This document shows positions 6,282 to 39,075 of a DNA stretch of 39,075 nucleotides, in pieces; the first letter of the stretch is position 1, and every line of letters starts with the position of its first letter. A program made the position numbers and the translations under genes. A model generated the notes under the pieces. It was not told the DNA's origin, did no database searches, and worked only from the letters and a program-made list of their open reading frames with translations. The stretch comes from a virus. The stretch spans positions 1 to 39,075 of IMG/VR virus record IMGVR_UViG_3300043466_001366, one strand, 5' to 3'.

Positions 6282-8066
6282 TTACTCTGTCGGGCGGTCG
6301 CCCTTGGGCGACAACACCTTGGCAAGCAACCCTGCCACTACCTGCATCTTTTCGCAGTCCCGAAGGTGATTTGCGCGGCCCTTCTGAACTACCCACTTGG
6401 CCGTAGTTGTGCCAGTGACAGGATTGCGTAGCTTACGCTTGACTGTGCTTGCCATATGTTCGTGCCAGTCAATCGGGAAGTCCTTGGGGAATTCCCATGT
6501 CGCGGGATCGCTGCGGCGTAGCGCGTCAAGAATGTCTTCGCACGTAGGCGCGGAGAACTTGATCAGAGGACACGTTCGGCGCGTCAGCGATCCAGAATCC
6601 CAGCGTCCTCCGCCAGCGGGATCTCCGCGCTCTGGCCGTGCGTAAGCGCGTTGCACCTTACGTCCGTTGTCTGACCATGTGAAACTCTCTTGATCGCTTC
6701 CGCGCAGAGCGACATAGCCGAATCGGCAGCAGGCAAAATAGACTTCGCGTGTCGCAAACGCGCTGTCCACGAATACGCACGGCGGTCTGATTTCATTTTC
6801 CTCGCGCACCTTTTCCAAGTCATCCCACGTTTCTATCCTGCCTGCCCATCTGCCGCGACTACGTCCGTCCTTTGACCAGTCGCGGATCACCGCCCAGAAG
6901 TGCCTGCCTCCCTGATCTTGAACGTCTACAGTCATTGCGCTGAACGTGGCTTCTGCCCATCGGTCGCCAGATAGATAGTCGCTCGCGGTAGATTTGATTT
7001 CTTCCTGCTTCTCGGAATCATCAATCCAAGGTTCTGCCAGTGCGCCATTCACGAAGTCCTGCAGACCGAGCAGCGATGCCTTCTGACGTAGGAATAGCAC
7101 GGCCAATTCACCGAATCCGCATGAACGCCACGGCGCATACAACGAATTCAGATGGTAGCTGCGTCTGCCTTTGCCAGCATTCGGATTCAGAGGCCTCCAC
7201 TCGCCAGCGCGAAGCATCCGAGTCTTGTGACCATCAGTGATCTTGTCCTTACAGTTTTCGCATTCGTAGTATGCCGTGGCGCGAATGGCATCTTCGTTCC
7301 ATGTGCCATCTTCGCTGCGAGCGGTATCTGACCATTTCACCTGCGACCAAAGCAATCTCTGCATGGTTCCGCAGTGCGGACATGGCAGGAAGTAGTAACG
7401 CTGATCGCCCTGCTGAAATGCCTGCCAGATTTCGCCTTCTGATGTTGTCGGCGTAGATGCCTTGATACGAAGCGCGTTCGTATAGGACTTGGTTCTGTTT
7501 TCTGCCAGAGCCACGGCTCCCGCTTCGCGTTCTGTCGGAGTAGCAAATTTATCAGTTTCATCCATGATAAGGATGCCTGCTGGACGCGATGCCAAGTTGG
7601 CGGGACTGTTACTGCCAATGAATACCAACGTGCAGTCACGGAATTGCTGCTCCAGCGTTTTGTAGCGATGCACGTTGCTCGGCTTCAGTGCGCGTAGCTT
7701 GTCGCAGTCATCAACCATCGGTTGCCATCGGTTCTCGCTGAAGCTTCGCGCCAAGTGTTCAGACGGCATTACCCAGATCAGAGGTGCAGGGTTGTTGACC
7801 ATACGCCACGCTGCACCAATCATCATCGCAGTGGTCTTGCTCGTCTGACTTCCGAAGCATAGGCATACGTCTGTTACGCTCGGATCTGCGAAGCAGTTCA
7901 ACGGCTCTCTGATGTATGGCGTCAGAAGCGTAGAGTAGGGACCAGGCGTTTCTGTCTGGCGACGAGTCAGAACGATCTCGTCTTCCGCCCACTGCCAGAC
8001 TTCACGATTGTCGATTGGAGCAAAGACATCGCGCAGGCTGCGATCAAGTTGCGCGATCAGAGTCAT
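6282..8066 (-). CDS. Terminase large subunit, GpA type
   Basis: A 594-aa protein from ATG 8066, which overlaps the TAGT stop as ATGA (the longer frame to 8156 is not needed). Motifs fit the lambda GpA family: Walker A-like GSQTSKTT at residues 72-79, adenine-binding WVMPSE near 98-103, Walker B ILIMDETDKF at 165-174, a CPHCG...CENC zinc ribbon in the middle, and nuclease-domain acidic patches (TVDVQDQGG, FVDSAF). It is the packaging motor that cuts concatemeric DNA and pumps it into the prohead through the portal. GpA-type enzymes usually cut at cos or at comparable specific sites. Unusually, three modification genes separate it from terS. Confidence 0.95.
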   Translation of the reverse strand: MTLIAQLDRSLRDVFAPIDNREVWQWAEDEIVLTRRQTETPGPYSTLLTPYIREPLNCFADPSVTDVCLCFGSQTSKTTAMMIGAAWRMVNNPAPLIWVMPSEHLARSFSENRWQPMVDDCDKLRALKPSNVHRYKTLEQQFRDCTLVFIGSNSPANLASRPAGILIMDETDKFATPTEREAGAVALAENRTKSYTNALRIKASTPTTSEGEIWQAFQQGDQRYYFLPCPHCGTMQRLLWSQVKWSDTARSEDGTWNEDAIRATAYYECENCKDKITDGHKTRMLRAGEWRPLNPNAGKGRRSYHLNSLYAPWRSCGFGELAVLFLRQKASLLGLQDFVNGALAEPWIDDSEKQEEIKSTASDYLSGDRWAEATFSAMTVDVQDQGGRHFWAVIRDWSKDGRSRGRWAGRIETWDDLEKVREENEIRPPCVFVDSAFATREVYFACCRFGYVALRGSDQESFTWSDNGRKVQRAYARPERGDPAGGGRWDSGSLTRRTCPLIKFSAPTCEDILDALRRSDPATWEFPKDFPIDWHEHMASTVKRKLRNPVTGTTTAKWVVQKGRANHLRDCEKMQVVAGLLAKVLSPKGDRPTE

Positions 8067-8833
8067 CTGTGCGCGTTCATCAGACGCTTGATCTGCGTGT
8101 AGTTCAACATTATCTGGCCTGCACGGCGAGGATGCGGAGTGATTAGGTCTCCCCACTTCATGAACATCTTCTTCGTGGCTACCAATTCTGCTTCTGAAGT
8201 GCGATATGTATTTGCTCCGCCTTCATTGTCACGATGCGGGAAGTCGCACATAATGTTGTCGCAACGAAAGACTCCGCCGTGCGTCAGGATCGCTTGCAGC
8301 GTCATGTCGTAATCTTCCTTCAGTGCTACATTCTCGTCAAAGAACGAGCATGATTGACCGACATAGATCAGATCGCACGCCACGAATTTATTTATAGCGA
8401 TCGGCTGGCCGTTGTAGTTCGCTGCGTTTGTCGTGAGTGCCGTGCCACCATAAACGCGCTTCGTCAGTGCGCTCGCATTCAACAGCGTCAGAATAGCTTC
8501 TTCAAGAGTGATGCGATATCGTTGCCACTTGTTATTCTCCCATCGCACAGACTTCACGTTACGCAGATCGTCGCTCGCTTGAATGCTGCAAGCGTCATGG
8601 ATTCTGGCATCGCGCAAAGCGGCATTTCTGGCCGCGCTGATGTTGTGCCTGCATCCTCTGACGCGATCAGATGAAAGGCCAGCAGCTATATAGTCGGCTT
8701 CTTCGCCTTCAGAGACATACCATGTGGATGCCGTGTGACCGAGCAGTTCAAGCATCGGAGCGACACGTTGCGGACGCTTCGTGCTGATGATCGCCATGTG
8801 AAAGCGACCTTCTGGTAGTCCTTCATTTAACAT
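8063..8833 (-). CDS. TET-associated glycosyltransferase (TAGT)-like
   Basis: A 256-aa protein. It shows STKRPQRVAPMLELLG, a WYVSEGEEADYIAAG segment, a GCRHNISAARNAALRDA helix and IQASDDL (D88-D89), which resemble the TAGT/GREB1-type glycosyltransferase fold with a DD metal/nucleotide-sugar site. TAGT enzymes are encoded next to phage TET/JBP dioxygenases and are thought to add sugars to 5-hydroxymethylcytosine in DNA. The gene overlaps the TET-like gene by 11 bases and terL by 4, so all are co-translated. ATG 8797, with AGAAGG upstream, is an alternative start. The sugar and the exact target base cannot be read from sequence. Confidence 0.75.
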   Translation of the reverse strand: MLNEGLPEGRFHMAIISTKRPQRVAPMLELLGHTASTWYVSEGEEADYIAAGLSSDRVRGCRHNISAARNAALRDARIHDACSIQASDDLRNVKSVRWENNKWQRYRITLEEAILTLLNASALTKRVYGGTALTTNAANYNGQPIAINKFVACDLIYVGQSCSFFDENVALKEDYDMTLQAILTHGGVFRCDNIMCDFPHRDNEGGANTYRTSEAELVATKKMFMKWGDLITPHPRRAGQIMLNYTQIKRLMNAHR

Positions 8834-9656
8834 TACGTCCGCTCAATCGGCGTTGCTCCACTTGTTCACGGCGCATTCTCGCACGCGCAATCTCTTGTCG
8901 TAGCGGCTGGCAGTTCCACATATTCTGCAGGCTGTAATACACCAGAGAGAATCGTCTGGAATCCGAAGCGAGCTTCGTGATCGGAGTTACCCCGTGCAGA
9001 ATCGCCTGTCCGTCGAAGTAGAAGATGCTGTGATTTACAACCTCTACCAAGACATCGTATTCTGGCATGGCGAGATACCCGCCTGCAATCTTGTGCTTCA
9101 GCACAATCATTGCGCTCCAAACGTGCTTGAAGTTACCGCTGTCGAAATGGTAGCAGAGCGGATTGTTGTCGTTGATGATTCCAGAAGTGAACGGAACATC
9201 TGGGTAGCGAAAGTCATCTACGATCTTTTCTTGCGCTGTTTCAAGATGACTGTCGTAGAGTTTCTGATTATGCAGCGCGTAGTATTTCGCGGCCAGCCTT
9301 CCTCCGTTAAGAATACGCTGATGAATAGCGGGATCTTCGGTAGCCAATGACGCAACCGAGCAGAAGTCCTTGCGAATAGCGTTGCGCGGATTGAAGCCGA
9401 ATATGCGGCTGGTTGTTTTCAGACCATTCGTGCGATAGTCAGCGCAGTATTTGACGTCTGTGCAGGCGTCGAAGATGTCGTTGAATTCTTGTGTCTCACC
9501 GCACGGCTTACAATACAACGCAACGATCTCGCCGCTGTCTTCGTCAATCAACTTGAACTCATCCTTCAGCAACGTGGAGCAGTCTGACTCGTCGGCGCGA
9601 CGATGAACGTATTGCTCCAGATCAACGGACTTACGCTTAATGGTTAGCGTTTGCAT
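8823..9656 (-). CDS. TET/JBP-family 2-oxoglutarate/Fe(II) dioxygenase
   Basis: A 277-aa protein with a double-stranded beta-helix signature: H170-x-D172 in CYHFDSGNFKHVWSAMIVL, GGYLAMPEYDVLVEV, distal H221 in ILHGVTP and Arg in SRRFSLVYYS for 2-oxoglutarate. The D-S-G-N-F, GG-L-P-Y and H-G-V-T-P layout is that of the Tet_JBP family rather than AlkB or prolyl hydroxylases. Family members oxidise 5-methylcytosine (or thymine) in DNA. The N-terminal part has Cys residues (CKPC, CTDVKYC) that may bind zinc. It is followed by TAGT, so oxidised bases are likely glycosylated. It overlaps the ParB-like gene by 20 bases. No cytosine methyltransferase was found in the genome. Confidence 0.82.
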   Translation of the reverse strand: MQTLTIKRKSVDLEQYVHRRADESDCSTLLKDEFKLIDEDSGEIVALYCKPCGETQEFNDIFDACTDVKYCADYRTNGLKTTSRIFGFNPRNAIRKDFCSVASLATEDPAIHQRILNGGRLAAKYYALHNQKLYDSHLETAQEKIVDDFRYPDVPFTSGIINDNNPLCYHFDSGNFKHVWSAMIVLKHKIAGGYLAMPEYDVLVEVVNHSIFYFDGQAILHGVTPITKLASDSRRFSLVYYSLQNMWNCQPLRQEIARARMRREQVEQRRLSGRNVK

Positions 9657-10299
9657 AGGCGTTAATCGCGGCGATGGCGGCTTCTGTATTGGTTTCCAAT
9701 CCCTTCTCTTTCTTGATGGCGTCCAGAGCGTTCATCGTATCTGCAAATTCTTGAACGTCCATGATCAGAACGATCTGACGCACTGTGCTGTTCTCGTAGC
9801 TCATCAGACGCTCAGTAGGCCGCAGTCCGCGCTCTCCGCCTTCAAGCACATCGCCAACGCTGTCGGCAGACAGATTGATTCCGAGCTTGTCTAACGCTTG
9901 ACTATCAAAGCCAAGCGATTCAATTCCCACGCCATCCGCCGTCAGCGTCTGAAGCTCCTTGGCGAGCAGATCACTGTCCCATTCGGCCAGCGTAGCCAGC
10001 CGATTGATGCTGATACGCAGAGCCTTGATATCGGCTTCACTCAGATCGTCGCAGACAATAGCGGGAACATTGTCGCCGTCCAGTCCTACGATCCCTTTTC
10101 GGCCGGCATCGCCAAGATGCTGCAATGCCTTTATCCTCAGATGTCCGTCAATCAGAGTGCCGTCCGACTTGGCAAGGACAGGAACTCGGAATCCGAATCG
10201 CTTGATGGCATCGGCTACTTGCTGCACGGCATGATCGTTCTTCCGTGGATTGCCAGCATAGGGAACGAGCTTACGAAGGGGTAGTGTTTCGGTTTTCAT
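9637..10299 (-). CDS. ParB/Srx-domain protein
   Basis: A 220-aa protein from ATG 10299 (MKTETLPLRKLVPYAGNPRK). It has the ParB-type N-terminal fold: LVPYAGNPRKND, then LIDGHLRIKALQHLG (G-H-x-R motif) and VPAIVCDDLSEADIKALRIS. In phages this domain commonly precedes DNA methyltransferases, either fused or as a neighbour, and some members have nuclease or CTP-binding activity. Here it stands alone and is followed by the TET-like gene. It could guide or license modification at certain sites or act in packaging. It overlaps terS by 29 bases. The in-frame ATG 10338 is upstream, but the internal start gives the standard N-terminus. Confidence 0.8.
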   Translation of the reverse strand: MKTETLPLRKLVPYAGNPRKNDHAVQQVADAIKRFGFRVPVLAKSDGTLIDGHLRIKALQHLGDAGRKGIVGLDGDNVPAIVCDDLSEADIKALRISINRLATLAEWDSDLLAKELQTLTADGVGIESLGFDSQALDKLGINLSADSVGDVLEGGERGLRPTERLMSYENSTVRQIVLIMDVQEFADTMNALDAIKKEKGLETNTEAAIAAINAYANANH

Positions 10300-10936
10300 A
10301 TATGGCTTTGAATAACGTCTTGTCCCGCCACTCTTCAAGAAGTTTCTGCGCGAGCATGGGATCCTGCGGATTGACTTTCGCCGCGAGAGCGGCAGGCATT
10401 GACGAAGTAATCGTTCTGACGTCTTGCAAAACTGTTCTGAAGGCTCGCTCTGCGTCCTCTACTTGCATGGTGCGGCGGTCTCGCTCCATCAGATCGCGCA
10501 GCTGACGCTCATAGACTACCTGCTTCGCCAGATACTGCTGATGCGTCTGAGCCCATCGGCGCGAGGCTTCTATTTCGCCAGAGTGATGAAGGCGAGCTAC
10601 TTGCGCGGCTGCGTGCTTACGTAATTGACGCTGCTCGTTCAGAGCCTCGCGGCAGCTATCCGTTTCGGTGTGCTGCTTGATTGGTTCTTCAATGGCTTCT
10701 TCGGCGCGGCGATTCATGGCGTCAATGATCTCGTCTGGTTGCACTGGAGCGGTGATCGCGCTCGCTACGGCTTCCGCCGCGATGACTTTCGCGGGACTGA
10801 AGGAGCGGCTACGTCCGTTCGTGCGATACCAAGACAGAGCGGCTTCCACGCTGTCAGAAGGCATTCCTCGCTTGATGCACTTGTGCGCTCCCGCTGGCGT
10901 CAGATTCAAGGCTGCGGCCAATTTACGGACAGTCAT
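10271..10936 (-). CDS. Terminase small subunit, Nu1-like
   Basis: A 221-aa protein whose N-terminus, MTVRKLAAALNLTPAGAHKC, is a winged-helix-like DNA-binding motif of the Nu1 type, followed by a long helical region with QLRKHAAAQVARLHHSGEIE and a C-terminal part that would contact TerL. It recognises the packaging site and delivers DNA to TerL. GGCAGGTGG lies just upstream of ATG 10936. The repeat-filled gene-free stretch directly upstream resembles in position the cosB site bound by lambda Nu1. The operon continues with ParB-like, TET, TAGT and terL. Confidence 0.75.
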   Translation of the reverse strand: MTVRKLAAALNLTPAGAHKCIKRGMPSDSVEAALSWYRTNGRSRSFSPAKVIAAEAVASAITAPVQPDEIIDAMNRRAEEAIEEPIKQHTETDSCREALNEQRQLRKHAAAQVARLHHSGEIEASRRWAQTHQQYLAKQVVYERQLRDLMERDRRTMQVEDAERAFRTVLQDVRTITSSMPAALAAKVNPQDPMLAQKLLEEWRDKTLFKAIYENRNTTPS

Positions 10937-11140
10937 TGTCCACCTGCCAGTGTCAACTTGTTAACTTGTGCGTTACCAAGGAAACATTCACGAAATCGTC
11001 ACGGGCCGCGAGCAACCCCACCCGCAAAAATCAGAAAAGTTTGCTTCATTTAGACGCAACTTTTTGCGCCAAAATGACTTACATCTACCCTGTTTTCTCC
11101 TGCTTTGGCCTGCACATTCGGGCGGCTCCGCGCCAATTCA
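10937..11140. other. Gene-free stretch between terS and the repeat array
   Basis: No frame longer than 16 codons with a sensible start is seen on the minus strand, and plus-strand frames look like shadows. It holds a short inverted repeat (GCGCAA-AAAG-TTGCGT on the minus strand) and AAGTTAACAAGTTGACA just before terS. In lambda this relative position holds cosN/cosB. No cos cut site can be identified by eye. Confidence 0.5.
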
Positions 11141-11390
11141 GTGATCAGAGTTGATCAGACTTGATGCGAGTTGATCAGAGTTGATCAGAGTTGATCAGAG
11201 TTGATCAGAGTTGAACCAGTTGATGCGAGTTGATCAGAGTTGATGCGTTCATCTGATCATCATCGGTCTGTTCCTTGGCCGCTCCTCTGTAGTGTTGATG
11301 CGTGATGATACGTGTTGATACGTGCTGACACACCTTTGGCCGAGTTGATCAGAGTTGATCAGGGTTAATGCGAGTTGATTCCTGTGAAGT
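11141..11390. repeat. Phased 10-bp TTGATCAGAG repeat array upstream of terS
   Basis: Plus-strand units of TTGATCAGAG or TTGATGCGAG follow each other at 10-base steps from 11141 to about 11249 (one unit is 9 bases), with looser copies at 11294-11328 and a second block of four at 11345-11384. Each full unit contains the palindrome TGATCA. A 10-bp period places all units on one face of the helix, as in iterons or multi-site protein arrays. The array lies between the early genes and terS. It may be the TerS packaging site, a ParB-type binding site or a replication origin. Confidence 0.85.
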
Positions 11391-11576
11391 TGGCCTGCTC
11401 TGCTTGTATGCCTGCGCTCGCCTTCTGGCATCATCGCGTGCGACAGCGTCCAGAACGTCGAACGAGGCCACCCCTTGCATCGCTCGCATGATCTTGCTGT
11501 CCTTTCTGCCGCCTCTTCCGTATTTGTCTCCGCCGTATTCGTGACCACGGGATTTGTATGCTGCTTCTTTGCTCAT
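11349..11576 (-). CDS. Hypothetical basic protein ending inside the repeat array
   Basis: A 75-aa protein, MSKEAAYKSRGHEYGGDKYG and on to RINPDQL, rich in Gly, Lys, Arg and Tyr near the N-terminus. Its ATG overlaps the upstream stop as ATGA, supporting it against the competing frame 11249-11548. The last residues (STRINPDQL) are encoded by the second repeat block. No family recognised. Confidence 0.55.
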   Translation of the reverse strand: MSKEAAYKSRGHEYGGDKYGRGGRKDSKIMRAMQGVASFDVLDAVARDDARRRAQAYKQSRPTSQESTRINPDQL

Positions 11577-12335: not shown

Positions 12336-13243
12336 AGTTTTACTGATGGTGTATGTTCTTTGCCGAGCATTGCGAGTTGCGTATGCAAATCCTGCTCGTG
12401 TTGTTTCAGTTCCTTCCACTTCGCGCTGATGGCAGGCTTCAGAGCGCGATCCCAAGGGGTCTGTGGATCCTTTGGCTCGCTGTTGTCTGGGTCTGCCTTC
12501 AGTCGCTGCATCTGTGCCTTGATGGCGTCAATGGCCTGCTTGAGTTCCCATGCCGACATCGGCCTGCCATTCCGCGATGCGGGGATGGTTCCTTGTGCGG
12601 CTATGGGACGCTCGCTGCGATTGAGCCAGTTGACGAAGCGTTTGCGGCTCGGTTGTTTGCGGTTGGCGCTGCACCATGCCTGCATCTTTCCAAGCTCCAG
12701 ACGGACGTCCAGAGCGGCATAGGCAGGGTTCTGGGACAACTCAGCCAACCAATCCTCGTCGCTGGTCGCGGTCACCGCGACACGTTTTGCCAACTTCCTT
12801 TCCTTTCCTATTACTTTCCCTTCCTTTCCTTTCCGTTGGAGCTCACCTTCAAGCACACCTTGAAGCTCTGCTTGAAGCTCTGCTTCGCCAACTGGTTCGG
12901 GCTCTGGTTCGCGCCGTGCTTCGCCAGAGCGTTTCCCGCCTCTCCTGCCTGCCTCGCGCTTCGCCTGTATCTCGGCCTGCTTGTCAGCGGGATAGAAGGC
13001 CACGGCGAGGTCATCGCCATGCCATTCCCAGAGCAGGGACTGCTCTCTGACCTCGCTGAACGTCACTCCGCACGTTTGCTGCCATTGGCGGTCTTTCCAC
13101 CCTGCACAAGCGGGAATTACCCCGCCGTTTTCCTGCTCGCAGCAATAGCAGAGGATGCTCAACCACGTTGCGCGAGCGGTTGGCTCGCTGCCGATGTATT
13201 CGGGCGAACGTAGGGTCGCCGTCTTGAGGTTCAGATAAATCAT
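12332..13243 (-). CDS. Replisome organizer / DnaD-like replication protein
   Basis: A 303-aa protein. The N-terminal domain (MIYLNLKTATLRSPEYIGSE, then ATWLSILCYCCEQENGGVIP) matches the winged-helix domain of phage replication initiators such as lambda O-like or DnaD-like proteins. A charged KREAGRRGGKRSGEARRE and Glu-rich linker follows, then a C-terminal segment with QPSRKRFVNWLNRSERP typical of these proteins. It probably recruits the host helicase loader or helicase to the phage origin. Five repeats of an AELQ/EGELQ-type motif in the linker are low complexity. No helicase gene of its own is present. Confidence 0.65.
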   Translation of the reverse strand: MIYLNLKTATLRSPEYIGSEPTARATWLSILCYCCEQENGGVIPACAGWKDRQWQQTCGVTFSEVREQSLLWEWHGDDLAVAFYPADKQAEIQAKREAGRRGGKRSGEARREPEPEPVGEAELQAELQGVLEGELQRKGKEGKVIGKERKLAKRVAVTATSDEDWLAELSQNPAYAALDVRLELGKMQAWCSANRKQPSRKRFVNWLNRSERPIAAQGTIPASRNGRPMSAWELKQAIDAIKAQMQRLKADPDNSEPKDPQTPWDRALKPAISAKWKELKQHEQDLHTQLAMLGKEHTPSVKL

Positions 13244-16682: not shown

Positions 16683-16756
16683 AAACACAAGCGGTTGAGC
16701 AACGCGATGAGACGCCATGAGACGCCATGAGACATTCATAAACACAAGCGGTTGAG
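16683..16756. repeat. AAACACAAGCGGTTGAG direct repeats and ATGAGACGCC tandem repeat
   Basis: The 17-mer AAACACAAGCGGTTGAG occurs exactly at 16683-16699 and 16740-16756, 57 bases apart. Between them ATGAGACGCC is tandem at 16707-16716 and 16717-16726, with a degenerate third copy. Its core CACAAGCGGTTG recurs at 6188-6199. These look like operators in the divergent control region between the minus early operon and the plus-strand trio. Confidence 0.75.
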
Positions 16757-37492: not shown

Positions 37493-39075
37493 CTATCCTT
37501 CTTTTTCGTCAGCGGCATCCATCTGACGCACGCGAGCCTTTGCGAAACTGAAGCCAGCGTCTCCGCCCCATAGCGCCCACGCGATGCGGCCAGCGGAGGG
37601 AAATCCGTCCTGACTTGGCTTGAAGCCTTCGCCCTGCTTATCCACTTCGTGGCGCGAGAAGTAGCTGAACATACGGCGAACGGTATCGGGCGAAAGGTTC
37701 GTGCGATTGGAAAGATCACGCGCTCTGGCTACACCTACCATCGTGCCGCCACGATTGAATTCACCGCGCCATTCAAGTCCACGCTTCGCTTCTGCGGCCA
37801 TAGCCTCGCTCGGCTTGAAATCAATGTGAGCGTATTTCTCGACAAGATTCTTGGCTGACAGATCGGCTTCGCTTGCAGCCTGACGCACTTCATCTGGAGT
37901 AACAGAATCAGCATCAATGTTGTCGAAGATGCGATCAATGGTTTCCTGCGGCACAAGCGGGAACGCTGCTCCTGCGATTGCCTTGGCCGCATCAGGCGTG
38001 AGGATGCCGCTCGCCACTGATTGTGCGAGTTCCAATAGAGCCTGCACCTGTGCGCCGTTCAGCGCCGTATCTTGCACTGTTTCTGGAGCAACCGCTCCTT
38101 CTGCAATCTGCTGCTCATCGCCATCAACCACGGATGTGACGGGAGCCATGTTCGGATCTGTGGCTACGCTTTCCACTCCGCTTGAAATCTCTGCGACAGA
38201 CACTCCCATTTCATCCGCCATCTCACGGATGTATGCAGCCTCCTTGGCTCGCTGACGAATGCTGGTCTGCCAGTCGTGTCCCGCCTCGCCATACAATTCC
38301 GCAGCGGTGGCAAGGCCAGTGCGCCAGAGTTCAATGTCGGCGCGAGCGTCACGGCCAGCGTCAATGCTGACTGAGCCTGCCCATTGCCAGCGTCCGTTGT
38401 AGATGTCAGGACTGTTCGGAATGTCGCCATTGGCCGCAGCATTGAGCAGCACCATGCGAATAACCTTGTTCAGAAACTGTTGCTCCAGCTGATAGCGCCA
38501 ATAATCAAACGTCCGTTCGGCTTGACGCAGATCCTTCCTCGCTTCTGGGCCTGCACTTGAGCGATCCAGCATGACGCGAGCAGATGTTCCAAGTGCGCGG
38601 CACATACGATCTTCCAAGTAGCGCACGAAGTTTGAGAATGCTTGTGCTGGCCGATCAGAGTTCTTGAAGACCTCCATGCTCTCGCCAGTGCCGAGGTAAT
38701 TGATGCGTCCAGGCTCCAGTGCCGTGAGCTTGATGTCGTTGCCGAACTGATCGCGGTCACCGCGCAGAACAGATGCCATCTCCTCGTCCGCTCCGTATTC
38801 AGTCTTCACCACGCCTGCCTGACTGCTTGCCCATCGCGCAGCCATCTTCTCGTATTCAATCAAGTCCATTACGTCTTGCGCGTCATTCAGACAGGCAGCA
38901 AGAACCGAGCGTCCGCGATATTCGTCAAGGCGAGTAGGCACGAACACGTGGCAGAAGTTCTCTGCCGAGATGTCTTGAAAACCTTGATACGTTCCGTTGC
39001 GATCGCGCTGATACACGCGATAGCTGACAGGTCTGCCGAGCGCATCAATGGTGATGCCGCCGAAATAGGCAGGGT
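37493..39075 (-). CDS. Portal protein, C-terminal part with extra C-terminal domain
   Basis: Continuation of the portal from the other end of the window, ending in TAG at 37493-37495. Residues such as RSVLAACLNDAQDVMDLIEYEK and ARVMLDRSSAGPEARKDLRQAE match the lambda gpB-like portal core. After a low-complexity linker, roughly the last 85 residues form a separate domain with GLEWRGEFNRGGTMVGVARA, RMFSYFSRHEVDK and PSAGRIAWALWGGDAG. This module recurs in phage head proteins and I know no function for it. It may replace a separate head protein by fusion. The stop lies just upstream of the tRNA-like element and the protease gene. Confidence 0.9.
   Translation of the reverse strand, partial: PAYFGGITIDALGRPVSYRVYQRDRNGTYQGFQDISAENFCHVFVPTRLDEYRGRSVLAACLNDAQDVMDLIEYEKMAARWASSQAGVVKTEYGADEEMASVLRGDRDQFGNDIKLTALEPGRINYLGTGESMEVFKNSDRPAQAFSNFVRYLEDRMCRALGTSARVMLDRSSAGPEARKDLRQAERTFDYWRYQLEQQFLNKVIRMVLLNAAANGDIPNSPDIYNGRWQWAGSVSIDAGRDARADIELWRTGLATAAELYGEAGHDWQTSIRQRAKEAAYIREMADEMGVSVAEISSGVESVATDPNMAPVTSVVDGDEQQIAEGAVAPETVQDTALNGAQVQALLELAQSVASGILTPDAAKAIAGAAFPLVPQETIDRIFDNIDADSVTPDEVRQAASEADLSAKNLVEKYAHIDFKPSEAMAAEAKRGLEWRGEFNRGGTMVGVARARDLSNRTNLSPDTVRRMFSYFSRHEVDKQGEGFKPSQDGFPSAGRIAWALWGGDAGFSFAKARVRQMDAADEKEG
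38949..39075. repeat. Terminal direct repeat marking circular closure (right copy)
   Basis: Exact copy of bases 1-127. Position 39016 equals position 68 of the window. Joining the two copies extends the portal reading frame upstream to an ATG at 644. The non-redundant genome is 38,948 bp. Confidence 0.95.

Follow-up and report, generated by a model that had tools for sequence, protein, structure and literature searches.

The locus and its decamer array

IMG/VR record IMGVR_UViG_3300043466_001366 is a phage sequence of 39,075 nt from an environmental metagenome, analysed here over its full length (hereafter, the window). Its positions 1-127 are exactly identical to positions 38949-39075, and both ends of the record match one unbroken stretch of a relative, L024; because of this end identity and the continuous match, we take the record, although it is handled as linear, to be a complete genome of 38,948 nt that has been circularised. 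The length of the end repeat, 127 bp, is also a k-mer size that assemblers commonly use. Nearly all genes of the window lie on the minus strand, and the features that concern us are the following.

6282-8156 (-): large terminase gene (TerL) of the GpA type (PF05876, E 1.1e-62; PF20454, E 1e-16)
9637-10338 (-): ParB-like protein gene between terS and TerL (phrog_620, E 4.4e-39)
10271-10936 (-): terS-like gene, 221 aa, with a predicted N-terminal helix-turn-helix (open reading frame and structure model)
10937-10987 (-): cosB-like boxes, candidate TerS sites, at 10980-10987 (inverted), 10957-10967, 10950-10958 and 10937-10945
11004-11017 (-): putative cosN, the 14-nt overlap of left and right ends, GGTTGCTCGCGGCC (from relatives, with 21 contigs that have the left end and 4 that have the right end at homologous bases)
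11032-11047 (-): conserved element across cosN, towards the right end, GAAGCAAACTTTTCTG (relatives have GGAAACCTTCC or GGTAAGGAATCTTTT; aligned by eye)
11141-11249 (+): array block 1, 11 tandem units of the GTTGATCAGA and GTTGATGCGA types, including one 9-nt unit (11210-11218)
11294-11333 (+): array block 2, four degenerate units, GTTGATGCGT, GATGATACGT, GTTGATACGT and GCTGACACAC
11344-11384 (+): array block 3, four units
11349-11576 (-): conserved 75-aa ORF, the last gene before the right end, with its stop codon inside array block 3
12795-12885 (-): within a conserved rep-like gene of 303 aa, 12-bp iteron-like repeats and, after them, a purine-rich tract (repeats and comparison with relatives; the gene weakly matches a replication initiation family, E 0.0033)

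The array repeats a 10-base motif in tandem about twenty times in the assembled record, a number that short-read assembly can shorten in such arrays. Self-identity at lag 10 reaches 76/100 at position 11138, against a maximum of 52/100 in 300 first-order Markov shuffles of the window and at most 43 elsewhere in it, and the TRF score is 150; the array described in the first-pass annotation is thus far beyond chance, with the block edges listed above. Its units share the core GTTGAT and vary at positions 7, 8 and 10 (CA, GC, AC and others). The finer claims of that annotation held in part. TGATCA, said to lie in each full unit, occurs 10 times in 11141-11384 (244 bp), whereas TTGATGCGAG, GTTGATACGT and TTGAACCAG units carry no GATC, and about half of all units are without it. 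Spacing is mostly 10 nt as claimed, and blocks 2 and 3 keep a single 10-nt register, but one unit has 9 nt, and blocks 1 and 2 are set apart by a step of 55 nt. Cooperative binding on one face of the DNA does not follow from this spacing, because the helical repeat of relaxed B-DNA is 10.5 rather than 10.0 nt, so that each unit is rotated by about 17 degrees against the last and the drift exceeds 180 degrees over block 1.

Every reading frame on both strands meets TGA across the array, which therefore encodes no long peptide. Its distal end provides the stop codon and the last residues of the 75-aa ORF, and this suggests that the array grew outward from that point. The palindromic TGATCA units account for the RNA folding signal of the spacer (z -2.8), and RNA structure was set aside as a candidate; neither a terminator nor an Rfam match was found.

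Exact and relaxed patterns of the array, run against 2.9 million viral contigs, retrieved no related phage, only three unrelated contigs with GTTGATAGGC units. In genome contigs the relaxed pattern gave many matches, mostly in Saprospiraceae. Those arrays likewise consist of 10-bp tandem units with a GTTGAT core; they differ in being many per genome and often in inverted pairs, whereas the window has a single array with other unit types, in a phage whose nearest prophage terminases belong to Verrucomicrobiota. Four loci from Saprospiraceae and other Bacteroidota (L142, L149, L171, L188) hold many dispersed GTTGAT decamer arrays; the Bacteroidota arrays are often inverted pairs around the palindrome GTTGATATTCAGCCGCTC, an arm of which has 39 and 84 copies in two genomes with one mismatch allowed. 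The idea of a widespread host element was dropped after the phylum of genome G001 had been sampled evenly: only 2 of 288 genomes had the pattern, and the relaxed search had already fetched both. As for the host of the phage, matches to TerL were found in 22 of 288 Verrucomicrobiota genomes (best E 1e-72), 14 of 246 from Planctomycetota and 3 of 198 from Bacteroidota; the commoner and stronger matches in Verrucomicrobiota are no more than suggestive of the host. A search of genome contigs found no provirus, and our literature search found no description of such an array.

The packaging end and the boxes beside terS

Contig ends of relatives, used in place of read ends, locate the physical ends of this phage group. 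Among relatives retrieved with TerL and TerS, 21 contigs from 21 metagenomes start at a common homologous base, some 82 nt ahead of terS (one group has GGTTGCGCGCGACT here, others GTTTGGGCGTCATT and AGTGCCCGAAC), and a further 5 start within 20 nt of it. Four contigs retrieved with the 75-aa protein extend 14 nt into this sequence and end there. This overlap is compatible with filled-in 5' cohesive ends, and a 14-nt direct terminal repeat looks identical in contigs. By homology, the cosN of the window phage would lie at 11004-11017, beside terS and within the interval 10937-11140 where the first-pass annotation had expected a packaging end. The element at 11032-11047 is cosQ-like by position. 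The array, for its part, lies 124-367 nt inside the right end, on the opposite side of cosN from terS.

This layout resembles the cos sites of lambda, N15 and 21 (cosQ-cosN-cosB) in its GpA-type large terminase, in the fixed ends that adjoin terS in the relatives, in the 14-nt overlap of its ends, which may be cohesive, in repeated short boxes between cosN and terS, and in a conserved element across cosN. In lambda, cosB sits between cosN and the TerS gene, which is where the repeated boxes at 10937-10987 are found. The differences are the distance of about 82 nt from the left end to terS, the inversion of one box, and the 10-bp array on the right-end side, an extra without lambda counterpart.

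The terS-like gene keeps its position in 22 contigs retrieved with its own sequence. Short boxes of 7-8 nt are present between the left end and terS in every relative, and the inverted first box equals a later direct box at 7/7 bases in 32 of 38 loci, compared with 4.1% of shuffled regions. The boxes fall into four classes, each with its own TerS helix-turn-helix: GGGGACA goes with SPNG(A/T)HKCIQRGMP, GTTAACA with xxAGAHKCIKRGMP, GGTGAAC with xPSLIxRWR(K/Q)RxMP, and GGAAACA with TAGQVCKLAKKGMP; the 38 loci are mutually related, and independent class switches are fewer than 38. Since identical left-end sequences occur with different box classes, terS and its boxes seem to be exchanged together. 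The window has a TerS of the GTTAACA class, with AGTTAACA/AGTTGACA boxes at 10950-10967 in a set less regular than those of its relatives. From these sequence comparisons, the boxes at 10937-10987, and not the array, are the likely target of TerS. The structure model of TerS has an N-terminal helix-turn-helix (pLDDT 75.7, pTM 0.43), and searches of Pfam (Phage_Nu1), PDB sequences and Foldseek returned no match linking it to Nu1.

A variable slot between the 75-aa ORF and cos

The array occupies an interval that runs from the stop codon of the 75-aa ORF to cos. Measured from the 75-aa ORF to terS, this interval varies in relatives from 48 to 1289 nt, the shortest with practically no spacer, and every relative that has the interval lacks the array. 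In the nearest, L024/L088 (TerS 83% identical), it is 135 nt long. The comparison with related genomes that the first-pass annotation had proposed thus found the array conserved in none, though the cos site is kept.

Other relatives fill the slot differently. L028 and L051 carry an HNH-like gene there, and L033 an ORF that resembles it without a Pfam match; L036 has an FkbM-like methyltransferase, a relative of which, again without a Pfam match, is found in L012; L020 and L019 contain unrelated 16/17-bp or 34/20-bp repeats; L022 and L026 have nothing in it. The slot of L012 also holds a Dam-like methyltransferase gene (7152-7709; PF05869, under the Pfam cut-off).

Lineage-specific expansion or functional element?

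We consider that the array is probably a lineage-specific expansion of a decamer, without an essential role in packaging, next to an otherwise ordinary lambda-type cos. Relatives package at the same place without any array, which makes a lineage-specific expansion probable, and the mixed unit types, the 9-nt unit and the decayed units fit slippage followed by decay. Slippage or unequal recombination would have expanded the decamer outward from the 3' terminus of the 75-aa ORF, and the expansion would have been tolerated in the variable spacer that separates cos from the last gene, a short way in from the right end of the 38,948 bp chromosome. TerS would bind the boxes at 10937-10987 to begin packaging at the core cos, TerL would nick cosN (11004-11017) and so produce cohesive ends of 14 nt, and the array would have no essential part in these steps. 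Set against this reading are the steadiness of the GTTGAT core relative to positions 7, 8 and 10, which might mark a bound core, though it is equally accounted for if a few variants were copied; a strong predicted curvature that might be useful near cos; and the occurrence of the array in one genome only, so that neither drift nor selection is measurable.

Several functional readings have to be weighed against this expansion. The first-pass annotation had likened the array to lambda cosB, a set of R sites that load the small terminase. It lies near cos and terS, and lambda cosB does carry repeated TerS sites (PMC4669245). The array is nevertheless on the wrong side of cosN, while boxes that covary with the TerS helix-turn-helix occupy the expected side; its units match a box no better than shuffled decamers do (P 0.13-0.54), and it is missing from relatives whose TerS is 62-83% identical, all of which makes a cosB-like role very improbable. 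A P1-type pac site, in which TGATCA elements come under the control of Dam methylation, is suggested by the density of these hexamers near a terminase gene and a site of packaging; the 161 bp of P1 pac contain seven TGATCA/G hexamers (PMC10028697). P1, though, packages by the headful from a pac inside pacA, whereas this group has fixed, probably cohesive ends, with the right end constant in relatives, and an array outside both the terminase genes and the core cos. About half of the units offer no GATC, and the scanned subset of window ORFs contains no Dam gene, which leaves the proposed Dam-dependent control unsupported; of all the readings, we give this one the least credence. The array had also been proposed as an origin, and tandem direct repeats in a non-coding stretch would suit iterons bound by a phage initiator. 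This we hold to be highly improbable, as relatives do without the array while their rep-like gene conserves 11- or 12-bp repeats and a purine-rich tract. The lambda origin follows the same plan of repeats and then a purine-rich tract inside the initiator gene, and by sequence the block at 12795-12885 is the better origin candidate; counterparts of it are seen in L011, L020, L033, L049, L060 and L065.

An accessory cis element, through which a phage or host protein (ribbon-helix-helix, ParB-like or nucleoid-associated) or DNA curvature itself would tune right-end termination or late transcription, is unlikely but deserves a fuller account. The array is within 400 nt of cos, its core is more constant than the rest of the unit, and a wedge model ranks its curvature near the top for the window (99.98th percentile); in L020 as well, repeats and high predicted curvature coincide in the slot. 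A single unit, however, reaches only the 78th percentile of shuffled decamers, and curvature would be expected of most 10-nt tandem repeats. Several relatives without repeats are also predicted to be highly curved next to cos, and curvature as a shared cos-proximal property was rejected as not repeat-specific. The window encodes a CopG-like protein with 10-bp repeats of its own upstream, but that decamer is unlike the array unit (P 0.79). Those repeats, three copies of GTCTCATGGC with a flanking direct repeat CTCAACCGCTTGTGTTT at 16702-16733, are probably the operator of the CopG-like gene. Partition centromeres of the ParR/parC type have 10-11 bp direct repeats and share the period and orientation of the array; here no parM/parR pair was seen in the window, and the array is not kept together with a binding protein, for ParB homologues are present in 74 loci of relatives and the array in none of them, although the terminase is retained too. 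A narrower form, in which phased, curved, GATC-bearing repeats load a protein and help the terminase to recognise the downstream cos at the end of packaging, seems to us more doubtful still. None of curvature, GATC content and the constant core is specific evidence of function, and a role as an accessory binding site or as curved DNA, though possible, is unsupported.

The array is probably ordinary in itself, and its value has been to lead us to the cos site of a group of uncultured phages. The slot in which it lies shows where this group gains HNH, methyltransferase and repeat sequences, and the box classes paired with TerS helix-turn-helix sequences amount to a natural experiment, from which a possible and testable recognition code for small terminases may be read.
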